Source: Candidatus Rokuibacteriota bacterium (GTDB lineage: Bacteria; Methylomirabilota; Methylomirabilia; Rokubacteriales; CSP1-6). From it: DNA of 49,757 nt. Below, piece by piece: positions 5,632-49,757 of the stretch (position 1 is the first letter of the stretch; every line of letters begins with the position of its first letter). The notes under the pieces are model-generated. The model saw only the letters and a list, made by a program, of their open reading frames with translations, had not been told where the DNA came from and searched no databases. The stretch spans positions 1-49,757 of the forward strand of contig QHSA01000143.1 of the NCBI GenBank assembly GCA_003220315.1. The letters are read 5' to 3'. Position numbers and translations under genes: made by a program.

Positions 5632-7119
5632 TCAGAGACCGCGAAGGACCAGCGTGGTCACGTCACCGCTCGCGAGGCTTGCCACCCGGATCGCGTGGTT
5701 GTTGGTATCGGCGATGAAGAGGCGCCCCGCCGCAACGCTCACGCCACTCGGCTCGCTGAAGCGCGCGGCCCCCGCGGCGCCGTCGGCGTGGCCGGGCGCG
5801 CCCGCGCCGAGGAGCGTCCGGCACTCGCCGGTCCGCGGGTCGAGCCGCTTGATCTTGTGGTTGTACGTGTCGGCGACGAAGAGGACGTCGCCGTGCCAGG
5901 CGAGCCCGAGCGGGTGCTGCAGACGCACGCTCGCTGGACCGATGCCGTCCGCGTCGCCGAATTCGAAGAGCCCTTCGCCGACGATCGTCCGGATCGCCCC
6001 GCCCGGCCCGGGCTCGACCGCGCGGACCGCGCTCGCCTCGCTGTCCGCGACGTAGAGCAGCCGGCCGTCGGTCGCGAGGCCGCTCGGCTGGTTCATCGCC
6101 GCCGTCTCGCGTGGTCCGTCCTCCAGCGCCTCGCGGCCGGTCCCGGTGTGCGGCCGGATCTCGCCGCTTCCGAGCCGCATCGCCCAGAGCTGGTGCGTCC
6201 CCGCCATCGCGACGTAGAGCGTGCCGTCCAGGATCGTCAGGTCCCAGGGGGAGGAAAGCGACGTCGCGCGTGCCGGTCCGCCGACGCGCGGGCCCATGAG
6301 CTGTGCGCCCGTGCCGGCGAGCGTCGTGACGCGGCGCCGTCCGAGGTCCACGGCGCGGAGCGCGTGGTTCTCGGTGTCCGCGACGTAGAGCGTGTCGCCG
6401 TCGAGCGCGAGCCCTTGTGGCTGGTAGAAGGCGGCGTCGTCGAAGCTCCCGTCGCCCAGGCCAGGATCGCCTCGGCCGATGACCGCCTCCACCCGGCCGT
6501 CGAGATCCGCGCCGAGAATGCGGTTCCCTCCCGTGTCGCTGATGAAGAGCCGGCCGCCCGCCGCGTCGGCCAGGACCTTGCCGGGGAACCTGAGCGGCGT
6601 TGGCGCCGCGAGCCGCTCGGGCTCGAGCCCGCGGGGCCGCCGGTCGAGCACCCCCGCGGCGTCGAACTCCTCGACCATCTTCGCGATCAGGTCGTCGAAC
6701 GGCTCGAGGGGGAACTCGCCCTCGTGCCGGCCGATGACCTTGCCCTCGGGGTCGACGAACATGAGCGTGGGCCAGGCACGGACCGCATACGCCTGCCAGA
6801 CGCGGAAGTCGCGGTCGTTCACCACCGGATGGCCGACGTTGAGGCGGAGGATCGCGGCGCGGACGGCGTCGGTCTCCCGCTCGCTCAGGAACTTCGGCGA
6901 GTGCACGCCGACGACGGCGAGCTCCTGGCTCCACTTGCGCTCGAGCTTCCGCAACTGCGGAAGGATGTGCAGGCAGTTGATTCAGCAGAAGGTCCAGAAG
7001 TCGAGCAGGACCAGCTTGCCGTGCAGGTCGCGGAGGGAGAGCGGGCGCCCGGTGTTGAGCCAGTCGGCGTCGGGCGGGAAATCGGGTGCGTTGACCCGGC
7101 CGGCGAACCGCTGCGCCAT
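5632..7119 (-). CDS. Candidate selenoprotein: thioredoxin-fold / NHL six-blade propeller protein (NHLRC2-like)
   Basis: Read through one in-frame UGA (6984-6982) this is a 495-residue protein. The N-terminal thioredoxin-like domain (about 1-150) contains [10 protein letters not shown], then the UGA, then [22 protein letters not shown]2-type proteins normally have Cys-Cys-Ile-Asn-Cys here, so UGA stands exactly for the first cysteine of the CxxC redox pair (Sec46, Cys49). Six NHL blades follow, each with an LFxADTxNH-like phrase, for example [16 protein letters not shown] and [16 protein letters not shown]. The ATG at 7119 lies 18 bases after the previous gene. A caller that ignores Sec would start at TTG 6954 and lose the active site. 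The protein is probably a thiol/disulfide or persulfide oxidoreductase with a propeller platform; its partner is unknown. No signal peptide is seen. Confidence 0.87.
6946..6963 (-). promoter_or_regulatory. Candidate bacterial SECIS hairpin of the thioredoxin/NHL gene
   Basis: In the mRNA, 19-36 bases after the UGA, a perfect 7-bp stem (CUUCCGC/GCGGAAG) closes the loop AGUU. G is in the second loop position and is followed by U. The loop lies 26-29 bases after the UGA, inside the 16-37 base range used in the bacterial SECIS consensus, and SelB recognises a loop G. The hairpin is within coding sequence (Leu-Pro-Gln-Leu-Arg-Lys). An alternative stem, CAACUGC with GCAGUUG, also exists, so folding should be computed. 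Confidence 0.75.
6982..6984 (-). other. In-frame UGA, probable selenocysteine codon 46
   Basis: The codon read on the minus strand is TGA between TGC (Cys45) and ATC (Ile47). Both flanks are conserved thioredoxin-like coding sequence in one frame from ATG 7119 to the stop at 5632, so a pseudogene or frameshift is unlikely. The residue occupies the catalytic cysteine position. Confidence 0.85.
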
Positions 7120-43744: not shown

Positions 43745-44179
43745 ATGAAGCCGACCGCCGTCATGACGCTCGAGAAGGGCGCAGAGATCCGGATCGAGTT
43801 CTTCCCGGAAGACGCGCCGAAGACCGTCGCGAACTTCGTGGCGCTCGCCAAGAAGGGCTTCTACAACGGGCTCACCTTCCACCGCGTCGTCCCGAACTTC
43901 GTCGTCCAGGGCGGGTGCCCCAAAGGCAACGGCACCGGCGGTCCCGGGTACAATGTCCCCGCCGAGTTCAACGCGCAGAAGCACGTCCGCGGGACCATCG
44001 CGATGGCGCGGAGCCAGCACCCCGACTCCGCGGGCAGCCAGTTCTACATCTGCTACGGTCCCACGCCCCACCTCGATGGCAACTACACCGTGTTCGGACA
44101 CGTGGTCGCCGGCATGGAGCACGTGGACCGGATCCAGCAGGGCGACCGGATGGCGTCGGTGGGGATCGTCGACGCGTAG
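43745..44179 (+). CDS. Peptidylprolyl cis-trans isomerase (cyclophilin), cytoplasmic
   Basis: A 144-residue cyclophilin without signal peptide; ATG 43745, 10 bases after the exported paralogue. VMTLEKGAEIRIEFFPEDAPKTVANFVALAKKGFYNGLTFHRVVPNFVVQGG and AMARSQHPDSAGSQFYICYG match the family. With its neighbour it forms a duplicated pair, one exported and one cytoplasmic. Confidence 0.95.
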   Translation: MKPTAVMTLEKGAEIRIEFFPEDAPKTVANFVALAKKGFYNGLTFHRVVPNFVVQGGCPKGNGTGGPGYNVPAEFNAQKHVRGTIAMARSQHPDSAGSQFYICYGPTPHLDGNYTVFGHVVAGMEHVDRIQQGDRMASVGIVDA

Positions 44180-44205
44180 CGACGTGTTGAGTTAACCGCC
44201 GTTCT

Positions 44206-44246
44206 TGGGGGGAGGTTTCGGAAGGGGGGCGAAGCCCCCCGCCGAG
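44206..44246. repeat. 41-bp dispersed hairpin repeat, copy 2
   Basis: Second copy of 40419-40459 (one visible difference). The GGGGGGC/GCCCCCC stem lies after the cyclophilin stop and before the deacylase gene and could terminate the first operon. Confidence 0.85.
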
Positions 44247-44260
44247 GGTATGGCGTGGTA

Positions 44261-44289
44261 GTGCGAGCCGCAGCCGAAGGCGAGGCGAG
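44261..44289. repeat. Short dispersed repeat, copy 1
   Basis: GTGCGAGCCGCAG then CGAGGCGAG, 29 bases in all, immediately before the deacylase GTG. The same pair of motifs recurs at 48529-48578 with a longer centre. It may form a repeat-associated leader. Confidence 0.6.
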
Positions 44290-44292
44290 TCT

Positions 44293-45894
44293 GTGACCTG
44301 GTCGCTGCTCATCCGGAACGGCTCGGTCGTCGACGGGACGGGCGGGCCCGCCCGACGGGCGGACGTTGCCGTGGAGCGGGACCGCGTCGCCGCCGTCGAG
44401 CCCGGGCTCCGGGGCGACGCGCCGCGGGTGATCGACGCCGCGGGTCACGTCGTGGCGCCGGGCTTCATCGACGCGCACTCGCATTCCGATCTCTTCTACT
44501 TCGGCTGCCCGTCCTCCGAGTCGAAGATCCGCCAGGGCTGCACGACCGAAGTCGTCGGCATGTGCTCGTTCTCTCAGGCGCCGATCGCGCCCGGGAGCGA
44601 AGACGCCGTGCGCGGCTGGGCGGGCGGGATCGGCGCGAGCCTCGAGTTTCGCTGGGAGACCTTCGGCGAGTACCTCGCCGCGCTCCGCGCCGTGCGACCG
44701 TCGATCAACGTCGCCCACTTCGTGGGTCACGGCGCGCTCCGTCTCGCGGCCGTCGGCGCGGAGAACCGCGCGGTCTCGCCGGATGATCTGAAGGCGATGC
44801 AGCGGCGGCTCGACGAGGCGATGGACGCAGGCGCGTACGGCTATTCGACCGGGCTCGTCTATCCGCCGAGCGCCTACGCCCCGACCGAGGAGCTGGTCCT
44901 CCTGGCGCGCTCGATGGCCCGGCGCGGGGGGCTCTACTTCTCGCACGTGCGCGGCGAGAGCGCGATGGTCGAGGACTCGATCCGCGAGGCGATCCGCATC
45001 GGCGAGGAGGCTGGCGTCGGCGTCCAGATCGCCCACGTGAAGGTGGGCGGGCGCGAAAACTGGGGGAAGATGGACCGCGTGCTCCGGCTGATCGACGACG
45101 CGCGGACGCGCGGAGTCGACGTCAGCGGCGACGTGTATCCGTATCACGCCGGGAGCACCAAGATGGACAACCTGCTGCCCGCCTGGGTGCACGACGGCGG
45201 GCTCGAAAAGCTGCTCGAGCGGATCGGCGACCGCGCGACACGGCGGCGCATCGTCGAGGAGTGCCTGGTGGACGGCGAGCGCTGGCTCACCGTGTCCGCG
45301 GGCTCCCTCGGCTTCGACGAGATCCGCATCGCGACGTGCCGCCAGCGCGAGCTGGAGGGCCTGACGCTCGCGGCGCTCGCGCGGCAGACGGGCAAGACGC
45401 CGGCCGAGGCGATGCTGGACCTGCTCCGGGAGGAGCGCGCGACGGTCGGGATGGTCTCGTTCTCGCAGAACCTCGAGAACGTCGCCAAGGTGCTGCGCCA
45501 TCCCGCCATCATGATCGGCTCGGACTCGATCGGGCTGTCCGAGGGGACGGGACCGAAGCACGGCAAGCCGCACCCGCGCATGTACGGGACCTTTCCGCGC
45601 GTGCTCGGCGAATACGCGCGCACGCAGAAGCTCTTCCCGCTCGAGACGGCCGTCCACAAGATGACCGGCATGCCGGCCGCGCGGCTCGGGCTCTCTGACC
45701 GCGGGCTCGTCCGCGCGGGGTACGCGGCCGACCTCGTCGTCTTCGACCCCCTGACGGTGACGGACGAGGCGACGTTCGACGACCCTCACCGGTACCCCAC
45801 GGGAATTCCCTACGTCCTCGTCAACGGTGACGTGGTGGTCGACGCGGGGCGCTTCCGCGCGGTGGGCGGCGGCCGCGTGCTCACCCCGCGATGA
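44293..45894 (+). CDS. N-acyl-D-amino-acid deacylase-type amidohydrolase
   Basis: A 533-residue amidohydrolase. The metal motif is VVAPGFIDAHSHSD near residue 60 (HxH). Later segments YGYSTGLVYPPSAYAPTEELVLLA, YFSHVRGES and AHVKVGGRENWGKMDRVLRLID belong to the D-aminoacylase/dihydroorotase-like group; IMIGSDSIG carries the catalytic Asp. Substrate could be N-acyl-D-amino acids or related cyclic amides. GTG 44293 is the start. The aldehyde dehydrogenase follows after 59 bases. Confidence 0.9.
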   Translation: MTWSLLIRNGSVVDGTGGPARRADVAVERDRVAAVEPGLRGDAPRVIDAAGHVVAPGFIDAHSHSDLFYFGCPSSESKIRQGCTTEVVGMCSFSQAPIAPGSEDAVRGWAGGIGASLEFRWETFGEYLAALRAVRPSINVAHFVGHGALRLAAVGAENRAVSPDDLKAMQRRLDEAMDAGAYGYSTGLVYPPSAYAPTEELVLLARSMARRGGLYFSHVRGESAMVEDSIREAIRIGEEAGVGVQIAHVKVGGRENWGKMDRVLRLIDDARTRGVDVSGDVYPYHAGSTKMDNLLPAWVHDGGLEKLLERIGDRATRRRIVEECLVDGERWLTVSAGSLGFDEIRIATCRQRELEGLTLAALARQTGKTPAEAMLDLLREERATVGMVSFSQNLENVAKVLRHPAIMIGSDSIGLSEGTGPKHGKPHPRMYGTFPRVLGEYARTQKLFPLETAVHKMTGMPAARLGLSDRGLVRAGYAADLVVFDPLTVTDEATFDDPHRYPTGIPYVLVNGDVVVDAGRFRAVGGGRVLTPR

Positions 45895-45953
45895 CCTCGT
45901 GAGTTTCGCGAACCACCCGTGACGCCGCCCGGCAGGGCGGTGGAGGAGATCCC

Positions 45954-47399
45954 ATGCCTACAGGACAGCTTTTCATCGCAGGCGCCTGGCGCCCCGCGGT
46001 CTCTGGCGAGACCTACCAGACGATCAACCCCGCGACCGAGGAGCCCAGCGCCACGGTGGCCAAGGGGGACGAGCGCGACATCGACCTCGCCGTGGCGGCC
46101 GCGCGCACCGCGTTCGACCGGGGCCCCTGGCCGCGGATGACCGCCGCCGAGCGCGGCCGGATCGTCTGGAAGCTCGGCGACCTCATCACGCAGCACCTCG
46201 ACGAGATGGCGCGGCTCGAGAGCCTCACGACCGGCAAGACCATGTTCGACTCGGGGAAGGTCGAGATCCCATTCGCCGCGGAGGTCTTTCGCTACTACGC
46301 GGGCTGGGCGACCAAGATCCACGGCGAGACGCTCCAGCTCCGGGAGAACGCCTTCACGTTCACCCTCCGCCAGCCCGTCGGCGTCGTGGGCGCGATCGTC
46401 CCCTGGAACTTCCCGTTCCTGCTCGCGTCGTGGAAGCTCGCGCCGGCGCTCGCGGCGGGCAACACGGTCGTCCTCAAGCCCGCCTCACTCACGCCGCTGA
46501 CGGCGCTCAAGTTCGCCGAGCTCTCCCAGGAGGCCGGCCTCCCCGAGGGCGTGCTCAACGTCGTCACCGGGCCCGGCGGCCGCGCGGGCATGGCGCTCGT
46601 GCGCGACCCGCGCGTCGACAAGATCGCGTTCACGGGCTCCACGGAGGTCGGCAAGACGATCATGCGCGAGGCCGCGGGGACCCTCAAGCGGCTCTCGCTG
46701 GAGCTCGGTGGCAAGTCGCCGAACATCGTCTTCGCCGACGCCGACATGGACGCCGCCGTCAAGGGCGCGATGACCGGCATCTTCTACAACAAGGGCGAGG
46801 TCTGCGCCGCGGGCTCGCGGCTCTTCGTCGAGGAGAAGGTGCACGACGTGTTCATGGCGCAGCTCACCGAGAAGGTCAAAGGCGTCAAGGTGGGCGATCC
46901 GATGGACAAGTCGACCCGGATGGGTCCGGTCGTCTCCCGGCAGCAGCTGGAGACGGTGCTCGGCTACATCGAGGCCGGCAAGAAGGAGGGCGCGCGTCTG
47001 GTGGCGGGCGGCGGGCGCGCGAACGTGGGCGGTGGGAAGGGCTACTTCGTCGAGCCCACGATCTTCGACGGCGTCACGAACACGATGAAGATCGCGCGTG
47101 AGGAGATCTTCGGCCCCGTGCTCTCCGTGATCCCCTTCAAGTCCGTCGAGGAGGGCATCGCGGAGGGCAACCAGACGACGTACGGGCTCGCGGCGGCGGT
47201 GTGGACGCGCGACGTCGCCAAGGCCCTCAAGGCCGCGCGCGCGATCCGGGCGGGCACGGTGTGGGTGAACGCCTACAACCTCTTCGACGCCGCGCTGCCC
47301 TTCGGGGGCTTCAAGGAGTCCGGGTTCGGCCGTGAGATGGGCTCGGTCGGCCTCGACCACTACACGGAGGTCAAGACGGTCTGGGTCGACCTCGGGTAA
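45954..47399 (+). CDS. NAD(P)-dependent aldehyde dehydrogenase
   Basis: A 481-residue ALDH. Cofactor site VPWNFPFLLASWKLAPALAAGN and FTGSTEVGKTIM; general base Glu in LELGGKSPN; catalytic Cys284 in GEVCAAGSRLFVEE. The C-terminal NAYNLFDAALPFGGFKESGFGREMG is typical of betaine/aromatic aldehyde dehydrogenases. A GGAGGAG site precedes ATG 45954. Aldehyde substrate not readable. Confidence 0.95.
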   Translation: MPTGQLFIAGAWRPAVSGETYQTINPATEEPSATVAKGDERDIDLAVAAARTAFDRGPWPRMTAAERGRIVWKLGDLITQHLDEMARLESLTTGKTMFDSGKVEIPFAAEVFRYYAGWATKIHGETLQLRENAFTFTLRQPVGVVGAIVPWNFPFLLASWKLAPALAAGNTVVLKPASLTPLTALKFAELSQEAGLPEGVLNVVTGPGGRAGMALVRDPRVDKIAFTGSTEVGKTIMREAAGTLKRLSLELGGKSPNIVFADADMDAAVKGAMTGIFYNKGEVCAAGSRLFVEEKVHDVFMAQLTEKVKGVKVGDPMDKSTRMGPVVSRQQLETVLGYIEAGKKEGARLVAGGGRANVGGGKGYFVEPTIFDGVTNTMKIAREEIFGPVLSVIPFKSVEEGIAEGNQTTYGLAAAVWTRDVAKALKAARAIRAGTVWVNAYNLFDAALPFGGFKESGFGREMGSVGLDHYTEVKTVWVDLG

Positions 47400-47430
47400 T
47401 CGGCTCGGGTGATCGGCGCGCCGGGGAGTC

Positions 47431-48147
47431 TCAGGGGTGAGCCTCCGTGTCCACGAGGAGGGTGCACCGAGGGTGCAGGCGGAGCGCCGAAGCCGGCACC
47501 GCGGGGTCAATGGAACCGTCGAGGACACGCGCCAGCGGCTCGCGCTTGACGCGGCCGCCGACGAGCACGACGACCTCGCGCGCCGCGAGGATCGTCCCGA
47601 TGCCGAGTGTCACGGCGCGGTCGCTGACCGCGCCCTGGAGGACCTCGTCGGTCAGGATGTAGCGCACGGTCTCGGCGGTGAGGCGCACGGGTCGGGTGCG
47701 GGAGTCGAAGTCGCTCCCGGGCTCGTTCGAGGCGATGTGCGCGTTCGGCCCGAGCCCCATCATGACAAGGTCGAGGCCGCCAGCGCGCTTGATCGCCTCC
47801 TCGTACGCGTCGCACATCGCCTCGAGGTCGGACGCGCCGACGTCGAACGGATGGCAGCGCTCGGGCGGCACACCCGCCCAGGCGAGGAACTCGCGCCGCA
47901 CCTGGCGCCAGAAGTACCCGTCGGCGGGCGCGGGCGGGCAGAGCTCGTCGACCGAGAAGACGCGCATTCTCCCGCAGTCGACGGGCTCGCGCGCCTGCCA
48001 GTCACGCAGGTGCCCGTACATGCGCCGCGGCGTGCGCCCCGCGGGCACCGACATCGCGAGGTCCGGCCTGGCGGCGACGCGCTCGCGGAACAGGGCCGCT
48101 GCGGCCTCGGCGAGCTCGGCCCCGTCGCGGAGGACGACGACCTGCAT
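47431..48147 (-). CDS. Glucosamine-6-phosphate deaminase-like protein (NagB family)
   Basis: A 238-residue NagB/6-phosphogluconolactonase-fold protein. MSVPAGRTPRRMYGHL gives the phosphate loop and VFSVDELCPPAPADGYFWRQV the catalytic Asp region. GLGPNAHIASNEPGS shows NagB-type His and Glu with NAH for the usual N/D-G-H, so activity may be modified. It starts 2 bases after the DsrE selenoprotein stop, so the two are co-transcribed. 6-Phosphogluconolactonase is a less likely alternative. Confidence 0.85.
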   Translation of the reverse strand: MQVVVLRDGAELAEAAAALFRERVAARPDLAMSVPAGRTPRRMYGHLRDWQAREPVDCGRMRVFSVDELCPPAPADGYFWRQVRREFLAWAGVPPERCHPFDVGASDLEAMCDAYEEAIKRAGGLDLVMMGLGPNAHIASNEPGSDFDSRTRPVRLTAETVRYILTDEVLQGAVSDRAVTLGIGTILAAREVVVLVGGRVKREPLARVLDGSIDPAVPASALRLHPRCTLLVDTEAHP

Positions 48148-48149
48148 CC

Positions 48150-48512
48150 TCAGGTCGAGACGACCTTGTCGGCGGCCGCCACCTTCTCGGCGAAGATCTT
48201 CGGCGTGACGAACTGCGCGTTCATGGACTTGAGGTCCTGCTCCGTGACCCCACGGGCCACCGAGCAGCGGCCTCAGACCCAGACGGGCACGCGATGCTCG
48301 ACGACCTTGCGGATCATCTCGGCGAGCGGCGGCATGCCGACCGGGAGCACCGCGCTCGCGATCTCCTGCTTGACCAGATAGGCGGCCTCGCCGGCGATGA
48401 AGATCTCAGGCGCGTGGCCCGCCTCGACGGCCCCGAGGGCGAAGTTGAACGGGAAGCCGGCGCGCGTCGGATCGTCGGTGCCCGAAGTCCCCACGTACAG
48501 AATGCTGGCCAT
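48150..48512 (-). CDS. Candidate selenoprotein: DsrE-family protein
   Basis: Read through one in-frame UGA (48275-48273) this is a 120-residue DsrE/DsrF-like protein (sulfur-relay/persulfide carrier fold). It starts MASILYVGTSGTDDPTRAGF after GGAGG at good spacing. HRVPVWV, then UGA (Sec80), then GRCSVARGVTEQDL matches DsrE relatives that have V(Y/W)VCGxCxxARG, so Sec replaces the conserved Cys and forms a Sec-x-x-Cys pair with Cys83. Forty family-like residues follow (DLKSMNAQFVTPKIFAEKVA) before the real TGA at 48150. Annotation as a truncated 79-residue protein would lose the active site. Probably handles sulfane sulfur or disulfides. Confidence 0.87.
48242..48255 (-). promoter_or_regulatory. 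Candidate bacterial SECIS hairpin of the DsrE gene
   Basis: In the mRNA, 18-31 bases after the UGA, CCGUG/CACGG forms a perfect 5-bp stem with loop GGGU (G in the first two positions, U last). A lower stem CUGCU/AGCAG (6-10 with 32-36) can extend it. The loop lies 23-26 bases after the UGA, within the bacterial range, and the hairpin overlaps coding sequence. Confidence 0.75.
48273..48275 (-). other. In-frame UGA, probable selenocysteine codon 80
   Basis: TGA lies between GTC (Val79) and GGC (Gly81), three residues before TGC (Cys83), at the catalytic position of DsrE relatives. The same frame continues to a TGA two bases before the next gene start. Confidence 0.85.
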
Positions 48513-48528
48513 CAGAGCCTCCGTGGCT

Positions 48529-48578
48529 GTGCGAGCCGCAGGTCGTCGCGGGGCTGGGGCCCCGCCGGCCGAGGCGAG
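48529..48578. repeat. Short dispersed repeat, copy 2, with internal hairpin
   Basis: GTGCGAGCCGCAG (48529-48541) and CGAGGCGAG (48570-48578) frame a 7-bp hairpin GCGGGGC/GCCCCGC (48548-48565). It lies in the spacer upstream of the DsrE gene. Compare 44261-44289. Confidence 0.6.
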
Positions 48579-48666
48579 CGTATGAACATGATTGCGGCCA
48601 AGCATACGCGAAGTCGCCCCGGCGCGGGAGGCGGCGCCCCGGCGCCTCGCGTCGGGCAGTCACGTG

Positions 48667-48672
48667 TATAAT
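48667..48672 (+). promoter_or_regulatory. -10 box TATAAT, possibly leaderless gene
   Basis: A perfect TATAAT ends 9 bases before ATG 48682, so transcription would begin close to the start codon and the mRNA would be nearly leaderless. No clear -35 box. Confidence 0.5.
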
Positions 48673-48681
48673 CGGCGCCCG

Positions 48682-49179
48682 ATGACCCGGCACGCGCCAA
48701 TGCGGCTGGCCCTCGGCGCGCTCGTGGCGTCCCTCGCCACGGTCGCGCCCGCCGCGGCCCACGTGACGACCGCGCCGGCGGTCGCCGTCCCCGCGGCGGC
48801 CCCGCCGTCGGCCGCGCTCGAGGCGGCGGCCTCGGGGTTCCTTCCGGCCTGGGTCGGGCTGGTCCTCCTCGTCGGGGCGCTCGCTCTCGGGAGGCGCCGC
48901 CCGCGGAGCTCGGTCGCCGTCGCGCTCTGTCTCGTCCTCGGGATCTTCGCCTTCGAGGCCGGCGTGCACTCCGTGCACCACCTCGACGCCGGCCATTCGG
49001 CGATCACGCACTGCGCGATTGCCTCTGCGACCGCTCACGCCCCGGCGGACCTTTCCGAAGGGGTCACGGTCGTCCCGGCGCCCGAGCCCGGGCGGCTGGC
49101 CTCGGCCGGCGCTCCCCGCCGGCCCGTCTCGATCTCGCTCCGTCCCGACTCCGGCCGCGCGCCTCCCGCGCTCGCGTAG
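48682..49179 (+). CDS. Small exported/membrane protein of unknown function
   Basis: A 165-residue protein. Signal peptide-like start MTRHAPMRLALGALVASLATVAPAAAH, then one or two membrane segments (WVGLVLLVGALALG and VAVALCLVLGIFAFEAGVHSV). The His-rich segment HSVHHLDAGHSAITHCAIASATAH contains one Cys and could bind copper or another metal, reminiscent of small proteins near metal-transport or porin genes. The C-terminus is Pro/Arg-rich. ATG 48682 is chosen over longer in-frame starts because of the TATAAT box. It precedes a porin gene. Confidence 0.6.
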   Translation: MTRHAPMRLALGALVASLATVAPAAAHVTTAPAVAVPAAAPPSAALEAAASGFLPAWVGLVLLVGALALGRRRPRSSVAVALCLVLGIFAFEAGVHSVHHLDAGHSAITHCAIASATAHAPADLSEGVTVVPAPEPGRLASAGAPRRPVSISLRPDSGRAPPALA

Positions 49180-49275
49180 CGTCACCTCTCGCTTCCAGCG
49201 ACCCCCGATCCGGCGAGACGTCCGTCTCTCCGGAGCGGGTCTGCGATTCCCACGTGAACGCACGAGGAGGCGATT

Positions 49276-49757
49276 ATGCGCCGACTGTTGGCAACGCTCG
49301 TGATGACCGGTGTCTTCGTCCACGCCATTTGGAGCGGCTCGGCCTTCGCTCAGACGGCCTCAGACTTTGAGGCCCTCAAGCAGGAGCTCCGCCGGATGCA
49401 GGATCGCCTCCAGCGGCTCGAGCAGGCGGAGCCGGCCGACCGGGCGCTGCAGCCGCGTCTGGCCCCCAGCCCCTCGCCCGTGGCCGTCCCCCTCGCGGCC
49501 CAGGCGCCGCCGGCCGTGGGTCCTCGTCCAGGCGAGCGCGAGATCCAGCTCGAGCGAGAGCACCCGGCCGAAATGGTCGGGCTGCCGAAGCCCGAGATCG
49601 GGGGCGTCCGCATCTCGGGGTTCTTCGTCGGCTCGGCGAACTACAACTCCCGCATCCAGATGGTGCCGGAGTTCGCGGGCAACGCGGGGGTCAGCTCGGA
49701 GCCCCGCAGTCTCGACTTCAGATTCGACCAGTTCACGATCGGCGCCTACAAGACGTT
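49276..49757 (+). CDS. Outer-membrane porin-like protein, 5' part (runs off window)
   Basis: ATG 49276 follows GAGGAGG at ideal spacing. Signal peptide MRRLLATLVMTGVFVHAIWSGSAFAQ, then a coiled coil (SDFEALKQELRRMQDRLQRLEQ), a Pro-rich linker and the start of a beta-barrel (GVRISGFFVGSANYN). This plan matches DcaP-like porins. 160 residues are visible; the 3' end lies outside. Confidence 0.75.
   Translation, partial: MRRLLATLVMTGVFVHAIWSGSAFAQTASDFEALKQELRRMQDRLQRLEQAEPADRALQPRLAPSPSPVAVPLAAQAPPAVGPRPGEREIQLEREHPAEMVGLPKPEIGGVRISGFFVGSANYNSRIQMVPEFAGNAGVSSEPRSLDFRFDQFTIGAYKT

Follow-up and report, generated by a model that had tools for sequence, protein, structure and literature searches.

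The window, the whole stretch of 49,757 nucleotides analysed here, carries on its minus strand a short gene of the DsrE family that is interrupted by an in-frame UGA at codon 80 (Table 1). The gene starts at an ATG led by GGAGG, and its frame stays open to the terminal stop except for this one TGA, as the original prediction had read it; the sequence and its translation bear that reading out. With TGA translated as selenocysteine (Sec), the context of codon 80 is VPVWV-U-GRCSVARGV, which exposes the UxxC motif UGRC. The Pfam DsrE domain PF02635 spans residues 3–118 (E = 1.8e-15; 57.6 bits, cut-off 22.7), and the product thereby combines the domain and the UxxC motif by which DsrE-like selenoproteins are recognized. 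Automatic annotation truncates dsrE at residue 79, and the active site is lost. In GC-rich DNA, an open frame past a stop carries little weight, so the case for Sec was built on homology.

Table 1 Positions of the genes, codons and RNA elements discussed in the text.
Feature	Position	Strand	Basis or remarks
DsrE-family selenoprotein CDS (predicted)	48153..48512	minus	120 residues; TGA read as Sec; Pfam and AlphaFold2
Terminal stop TGA of dsrE	48152-48150	minus	Translation
In-frame UGA, codon 80, predicted Sec (UxxC with Cys83)	48273..48275	minus	Orthologue conservation and Cys/UGA exchange
GGAGG ribosome-binding site	48518..48522	minus	5 bases upstream of ATG 48512; sequence reading
Bacterial SECIS element region (predicted)	48228..48275	minus	Minimum free energy, covariation, retention in UGA forms
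SECIS core stem	48260-48254 with 48250-48244	minus
SECIS apical loop, GUG	48253-48251	minus
SECIS outer stem, UGAGG/CCUCA		minus
NagB-type gene (glucosamine-6-phosphate deaminase / 6-phosphogluconolactonase family)	47431..48147	minus	PF01182, E 7.9e-27; 2 bases after dsrE stop
Thioredoxin-like domain and NHL repeats (NHLRC2-like), candidate selenoprotein	5632-7119	minus	UGA at 6984-6982

Codon 80 in DsrE homologues and the Sec machinery of the host

All close orthologues in genomes of the class, 16 Rokubacteriales sequences that are 70% identical or more, retain UGA80, the sequence downstream of it and the UGxC motif. Most of these orthologues terminate with TAA or TAG, so UGA80 is no generic substitute for a stop codon. 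When 84,980 species genomes were scanned, 80 homologues from named genomes came back; at codon 80, 48 of them have Cys (TGC/TGT), 32 have TGA and none has TAA or TAG (0/80). The Cys80 forms reside in Acidobacteria, Verrucomicrobia, Bacteroidota and Proteobacteria. Cysteine had been expected at the Sec position of DsrE relatives, and residue 80 indeed exchanges between Cys and UGA in this set. The pN/pS ratio is about equal on the two sides of the codon (0.32 upstream and 0.29 downstream of the UGA; 12 orthologues), consistent with purifying selection acting both upstream and downstream of UGA80.

Under the standard code, the same UGA is a stop, the listed open reading frame ends at 48273, and the locus could be read as a DsrE pseudogene, truncated or in decay, whose product stops at residue 79. 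This is very improbable, given that the UGA persists in independent genomes across two orders and is never TAA or TAG, that the sequence after it is under equal purifying selection, and that Cys homologues read straight through codon 80. Homologues naturally ending at residue 79, which the original prediction had named as the observation to fear, were found neither among the 80 homologues nor among the Rokubacteriales orthologues; all continue through codon 80.

On a 90-sequence tree built from few columns and with many unresolved forks, the fewest Cys/Sec changes by parsimony is two, and a group of Acidobacteria-type UGA forms is nested within the Cys group. Nine UGA dsrE genes lie among Cys forms (L063, L077, L080, L086, L089, L091, L093, L095 and L107); eight are labelled Acidobacteriota and one Deltaproteobacteria, and the GUG-loop hairpin described below is retained in them.

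The genome that contains the window is 98% complete, with 1.8% contamination. One of its contigs (C281) carries together selA (TIGR00474, 580 bits), selB (TIGR00475, 365 bits) and selC, the gene for tRNA-Sec with anticodon TCA, and selD is found at C231:16606-17541 (L041). An in-frame UGA is common to many selenophosphate synthetases, and the selD identified here contains one, making it a selenoprotein gene itself. A lack of sel genes had been put forward as evidence that would speak against Sec; selA, selB, selC and selD are all present. Among relatives, selB scores above the cut-off in 85 of 99 genomes, and the nearest named DsrE homologues (97–92% identical) come from soil metagenome-assembled genomes of Candidatus Rokubacteria / Rokuibacteriota.

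Alternative TGA codes exist in other bacteria, and TGA might likewise encode a different residue in this lineage, such as Trp or Gly. Such a reassignment is scarcely credible here: the exchange partner is Cys rather than Trp or Gly, a tRNA-Sec with anticodon TCA is present, and dsrE itself ends with TGA where its relatives use TAA or TAG. Conservation, Cys exchange and the tRNA-Sec led us to reject a pseudogene, an assembly error and TGA reassignment alike. Judged from sequence evidence, Sec decoding at UGA80, together with an active site based on Sec80, is highly probable.

The hairpin downstream of UGA80

The RNA that follows UGA80 folds into a SECIS-like hairpin with a conserved core, GUGGCCC-GUG-GGGUCAC, whose loop lies 19 nt downstream of the UGA. 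The 48-nt segment starting at the UGA has a minimum free energy (MFE) of -32.2 kcal/mol (z -4.8), a value reached by 0 of 200 shuffles. Across 25 distinct relatives, the 10-pair stem of the core hairpin has 87.6% paired cells, and four of its pairs show changes in both partners; its covariation score is 0.233 against a shuffled mean of 0.107 (0/500 shuffles as high). Sliding the stem partners by one column reduces pairing to 51–58%, and RNAalifold independently picks the same core plus the outer stem that starts at the UGA. The SECIS prediction proposed as a check thus returned a hairpin with covariation in the expected place. The original prediction had also drawn a specific hairpin, CCGUG-GGGU-CACGG, 18–31 bases after the UGA. 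A hairpin does exist there, but the register was wrong, and what is conserved is a longer, overlapping hairpin. We rejected the CCGUG-GGGU-CACGG register on account of the pair C22-G33 of the segment, which is broken in 14 of the 25 distinct relatives, and of a much weaker covariation.

A published model of bacterial SECIS elements describes a loop of 3–9 nt, a G within the first two loop positions, a spacing of 16–37 nt and an MFE of -7.5 or lower (PMC13188914), and the hairpin in the window agrees with it on all four counts. The loop triplet is GUG in 29 of the 32 UGA forms and GGG in the others. No Rfam match was found in positions 44000-49757. The hairpin is also constrained by the codons of the ARGV segment, which are conserved.

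The core pairs are better retained in UGA forms (5.6 of 6) than in Cys forms (3.1 of 6), and the loop triplets of the latter are highly varied. At least five core pairs are found in 30/31 UGA forms versus 3/45 Cys forms, a comparison with too few independent exchanges (two by parsimony) to reach significance. Because the tree holds only two exchanges, the retention of the hairpin in UGA relative to Cys forms appears strong as a pattern and does not constitute independent replication. In the mechanism that we propose, SelB and Sec-tRNA-Sec, supplied by the products of selC, selA and selD, would bind this hairpin right after UGA 48275, and selenocysteine would be inserted at residue 80.

Fold, active site and gene context of the DsrE-family product

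An AlphaFold2 model of the DsrE product, computed on the alignment, has a mean pLDDT of 96, and the top Foldseek matches in the PDB are YchN (1jx7), TusBCD (2d1p) and DsrEFH (2hy5). E. coli YchN is the best match in both sequence and fold. It has a CxxC at the position of the UxxC, followed by an RG motif, and it differs in having Cys in place of Sec and in sharing 16% identity in the structural match. A profile alignment places Sec80 and Cys83 on this CxxC (CKTC), with Sec80 on the first Cys, and it also places Sec80 on a cysteine of TusD. The latter is residue 90 of the 140-residue 2d1p chain and would correspond to Cys78 if the chain includes a 12-residue tag. Cys78 is the essential cysteine of TusD, and in Allochromatium DsrE a persulfide forms on Cys78 and is passed to DsrC (PMC3397948). 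We infer that Sec80 stands where DsrE/TusD have the persulfide-bearing Cys78. DsrE of DsrEFH and TusD of TusBCD accordingly have the same fold and active-cysteine position as the window protein, with Sec replacing Cys. TusD differs in that it has no second Cys three residues on (CVAA). The DsrF/TusC and DsrH/TusB partner genes of the known complexes are absent alongside dsrE, whose neighbors in the window are the NagB-type gene and an aldehyde dehydrogenase gene.

Because Sec80 aligns with the persulfide cysteine, and Sec80/Cys83 with the CxxC of YchN, the protein would most likely serve in the cytoplasm as a small selenol-based carrier of sulfur or in thiol-disulfide (selenenylsulfide) exchange. 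Sec80 and Cys83 would form a UxxC selenol/thiol pair comparable to the CxxC of E. coli YchN, with Cys83 serving as the resolving thiol. We give a redox or exchange role specifically about an even chance. Alternatively, Sec80 could bind a metal(loid) or an organic ligand with no redox or sulfur-transfer chemistry, in the manner of the Sec ligand roles suggested for the SaoB, SaoC and UXX-star families (PMC13188914). We consider this unlikely, as the UxxC pair and the persulfide-cysteine position in the same fold favor thiol/selenol chemistry (PMC3397948).

The gene downstream of dsrE belongs to the general family PF01182 and falls short of the curated NagB cut-off: its scores with the NCBIfam NagB models stay under their thresholds (TIGR00502, 136.6 bits versus 236.9). 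The original prediction had pointed to a coupling of the two genes. Their tight spacing in the window is real, but of 30 loci examined only 7 have dsrE and a NagB-type gene side by side, and these are spread over three genera that are all near relatives. The 2-base gap, the shared strand and the recurrence of the pair in three genera would fit a reading in which Sec is inserted and the protein performs a sugar-related job coupled to the NagB-type enzyme, such as redox control of amino-sugar metabolism. This reading is improbable, as most orthologues, including those 70–85% identical, have other neighbors: a TauE/SafE-like permease, a cytochrome c, a phosphate-type binding protein or a peptidase. 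Besides the NagB-type gene of the near relatives, no conserved neighbor of dsrE was found in about ten loci. Since neighbors vary from locus to locus, nothing links the DsrE protein to a pathway, and the dsrE-NagB pairing, being limited to seven loci in near relatives, is treated as a local, lineage-specific arrangement. In one relative (L011 / L049), the DsrE frame has no stop and runs into the NagB-type region, with a NagB match from residue 24 only, possibly a fusion or a frameshift.

Known DsrE-like selenoproteins, putative double-Sec forms and a second candidate

Sec-containing DsrE proteins had indeed been noted in environmental surveys, as the original prediction stated. DsrE-like UxxC selenoproteins were reported in the Sargasso Sea selenoproteome (PMC1088965), the GOS survey distinguished DsrE 1 and DsrE 2 selenoproteins (PMC2398784), and in a 2026 catalogue DsrE-like proteins are entered as single-Sec UxxC proteins (PMC13188914). 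Sec-containing UxxC DsrE-like proteins have thus been known for two decades, and the window gene joins this catalogued group as an added member, not as a new system. It shares with the known members PF02635, Sec in UxxC, a SECIS directly after the UGA and the existence of Cys homologues; it differs in its host, Candidatus Rokubacteria/Methylomirabilota, and in the NagB-type gene located downstream in near relatives. A literature search combining Rokubacteria, Methylomirabilota or Methylomirabilis with selenoprotein or selenocysteine uncovered nothing specific other than the review PMC13188914, in which a Methylomirabilota metagenome-assembled genome with 63 predicted selenoprotein genes is cited. 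The gene described here represents a selenoprotein firmly supported at the sequence level in an uncultured soil lineage, in a phylum already known for the great size of its predicted selenoproteome.

About 20 Methylomirabilota genomes, including the single-contig genome G066, encode a DsrE with UGA at both codons 80 and 83 (UGGU). These UxxU loci are L018, L024-L029, L031, L122, L123 and L125-L140, and the double-Sec form is absent from the 2026 catalogue (PMC13188914). Most UxxU RNAs can fold either of two alternative hairpins, which exclude each other. The upstream one is in range of just the first UGA, as its loop is no more than 10 nt away from the second; the one farther downstream, with the loop GGAYG, is in range of both, at 29 nt from the first UGA and 20 nt from the second. 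Since the two hairpins hardly vary, they offer no covariation that would favor either one, and codon content by itself might explain both. We tentatively suggest, as a possibility of rather modest probability, that Methylomirabilota possess a DsrE family with a double-Sec form, in which the alternative hairpins act as a switchable SECIS for two Sec residues three positions apart. If so, the single-Sec form in the window would be a simpler relative of the UxxU form. With its Sec and Cys homologues in a matched set, and with the UxxU forms besides, the family makes a good test case for the contribution of selenium to the DsrE/YchN active site.

A second candidate selenoprotein gene in the window encodes a thioredoxin-like domain and NHL repeats, with the UGA in the context LDFWTFC-U-INC. 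The term 'NHL' was not found in the 2026 catalogue (PMC13188914). A hairpin, CUUCCGC-AGUU-GCGGAAG, lies downstream of this UGA (MFE -12.9, z only -0.9). The UGA occupies the same position in five of six relatives, and the codon is Cys in genome G059.
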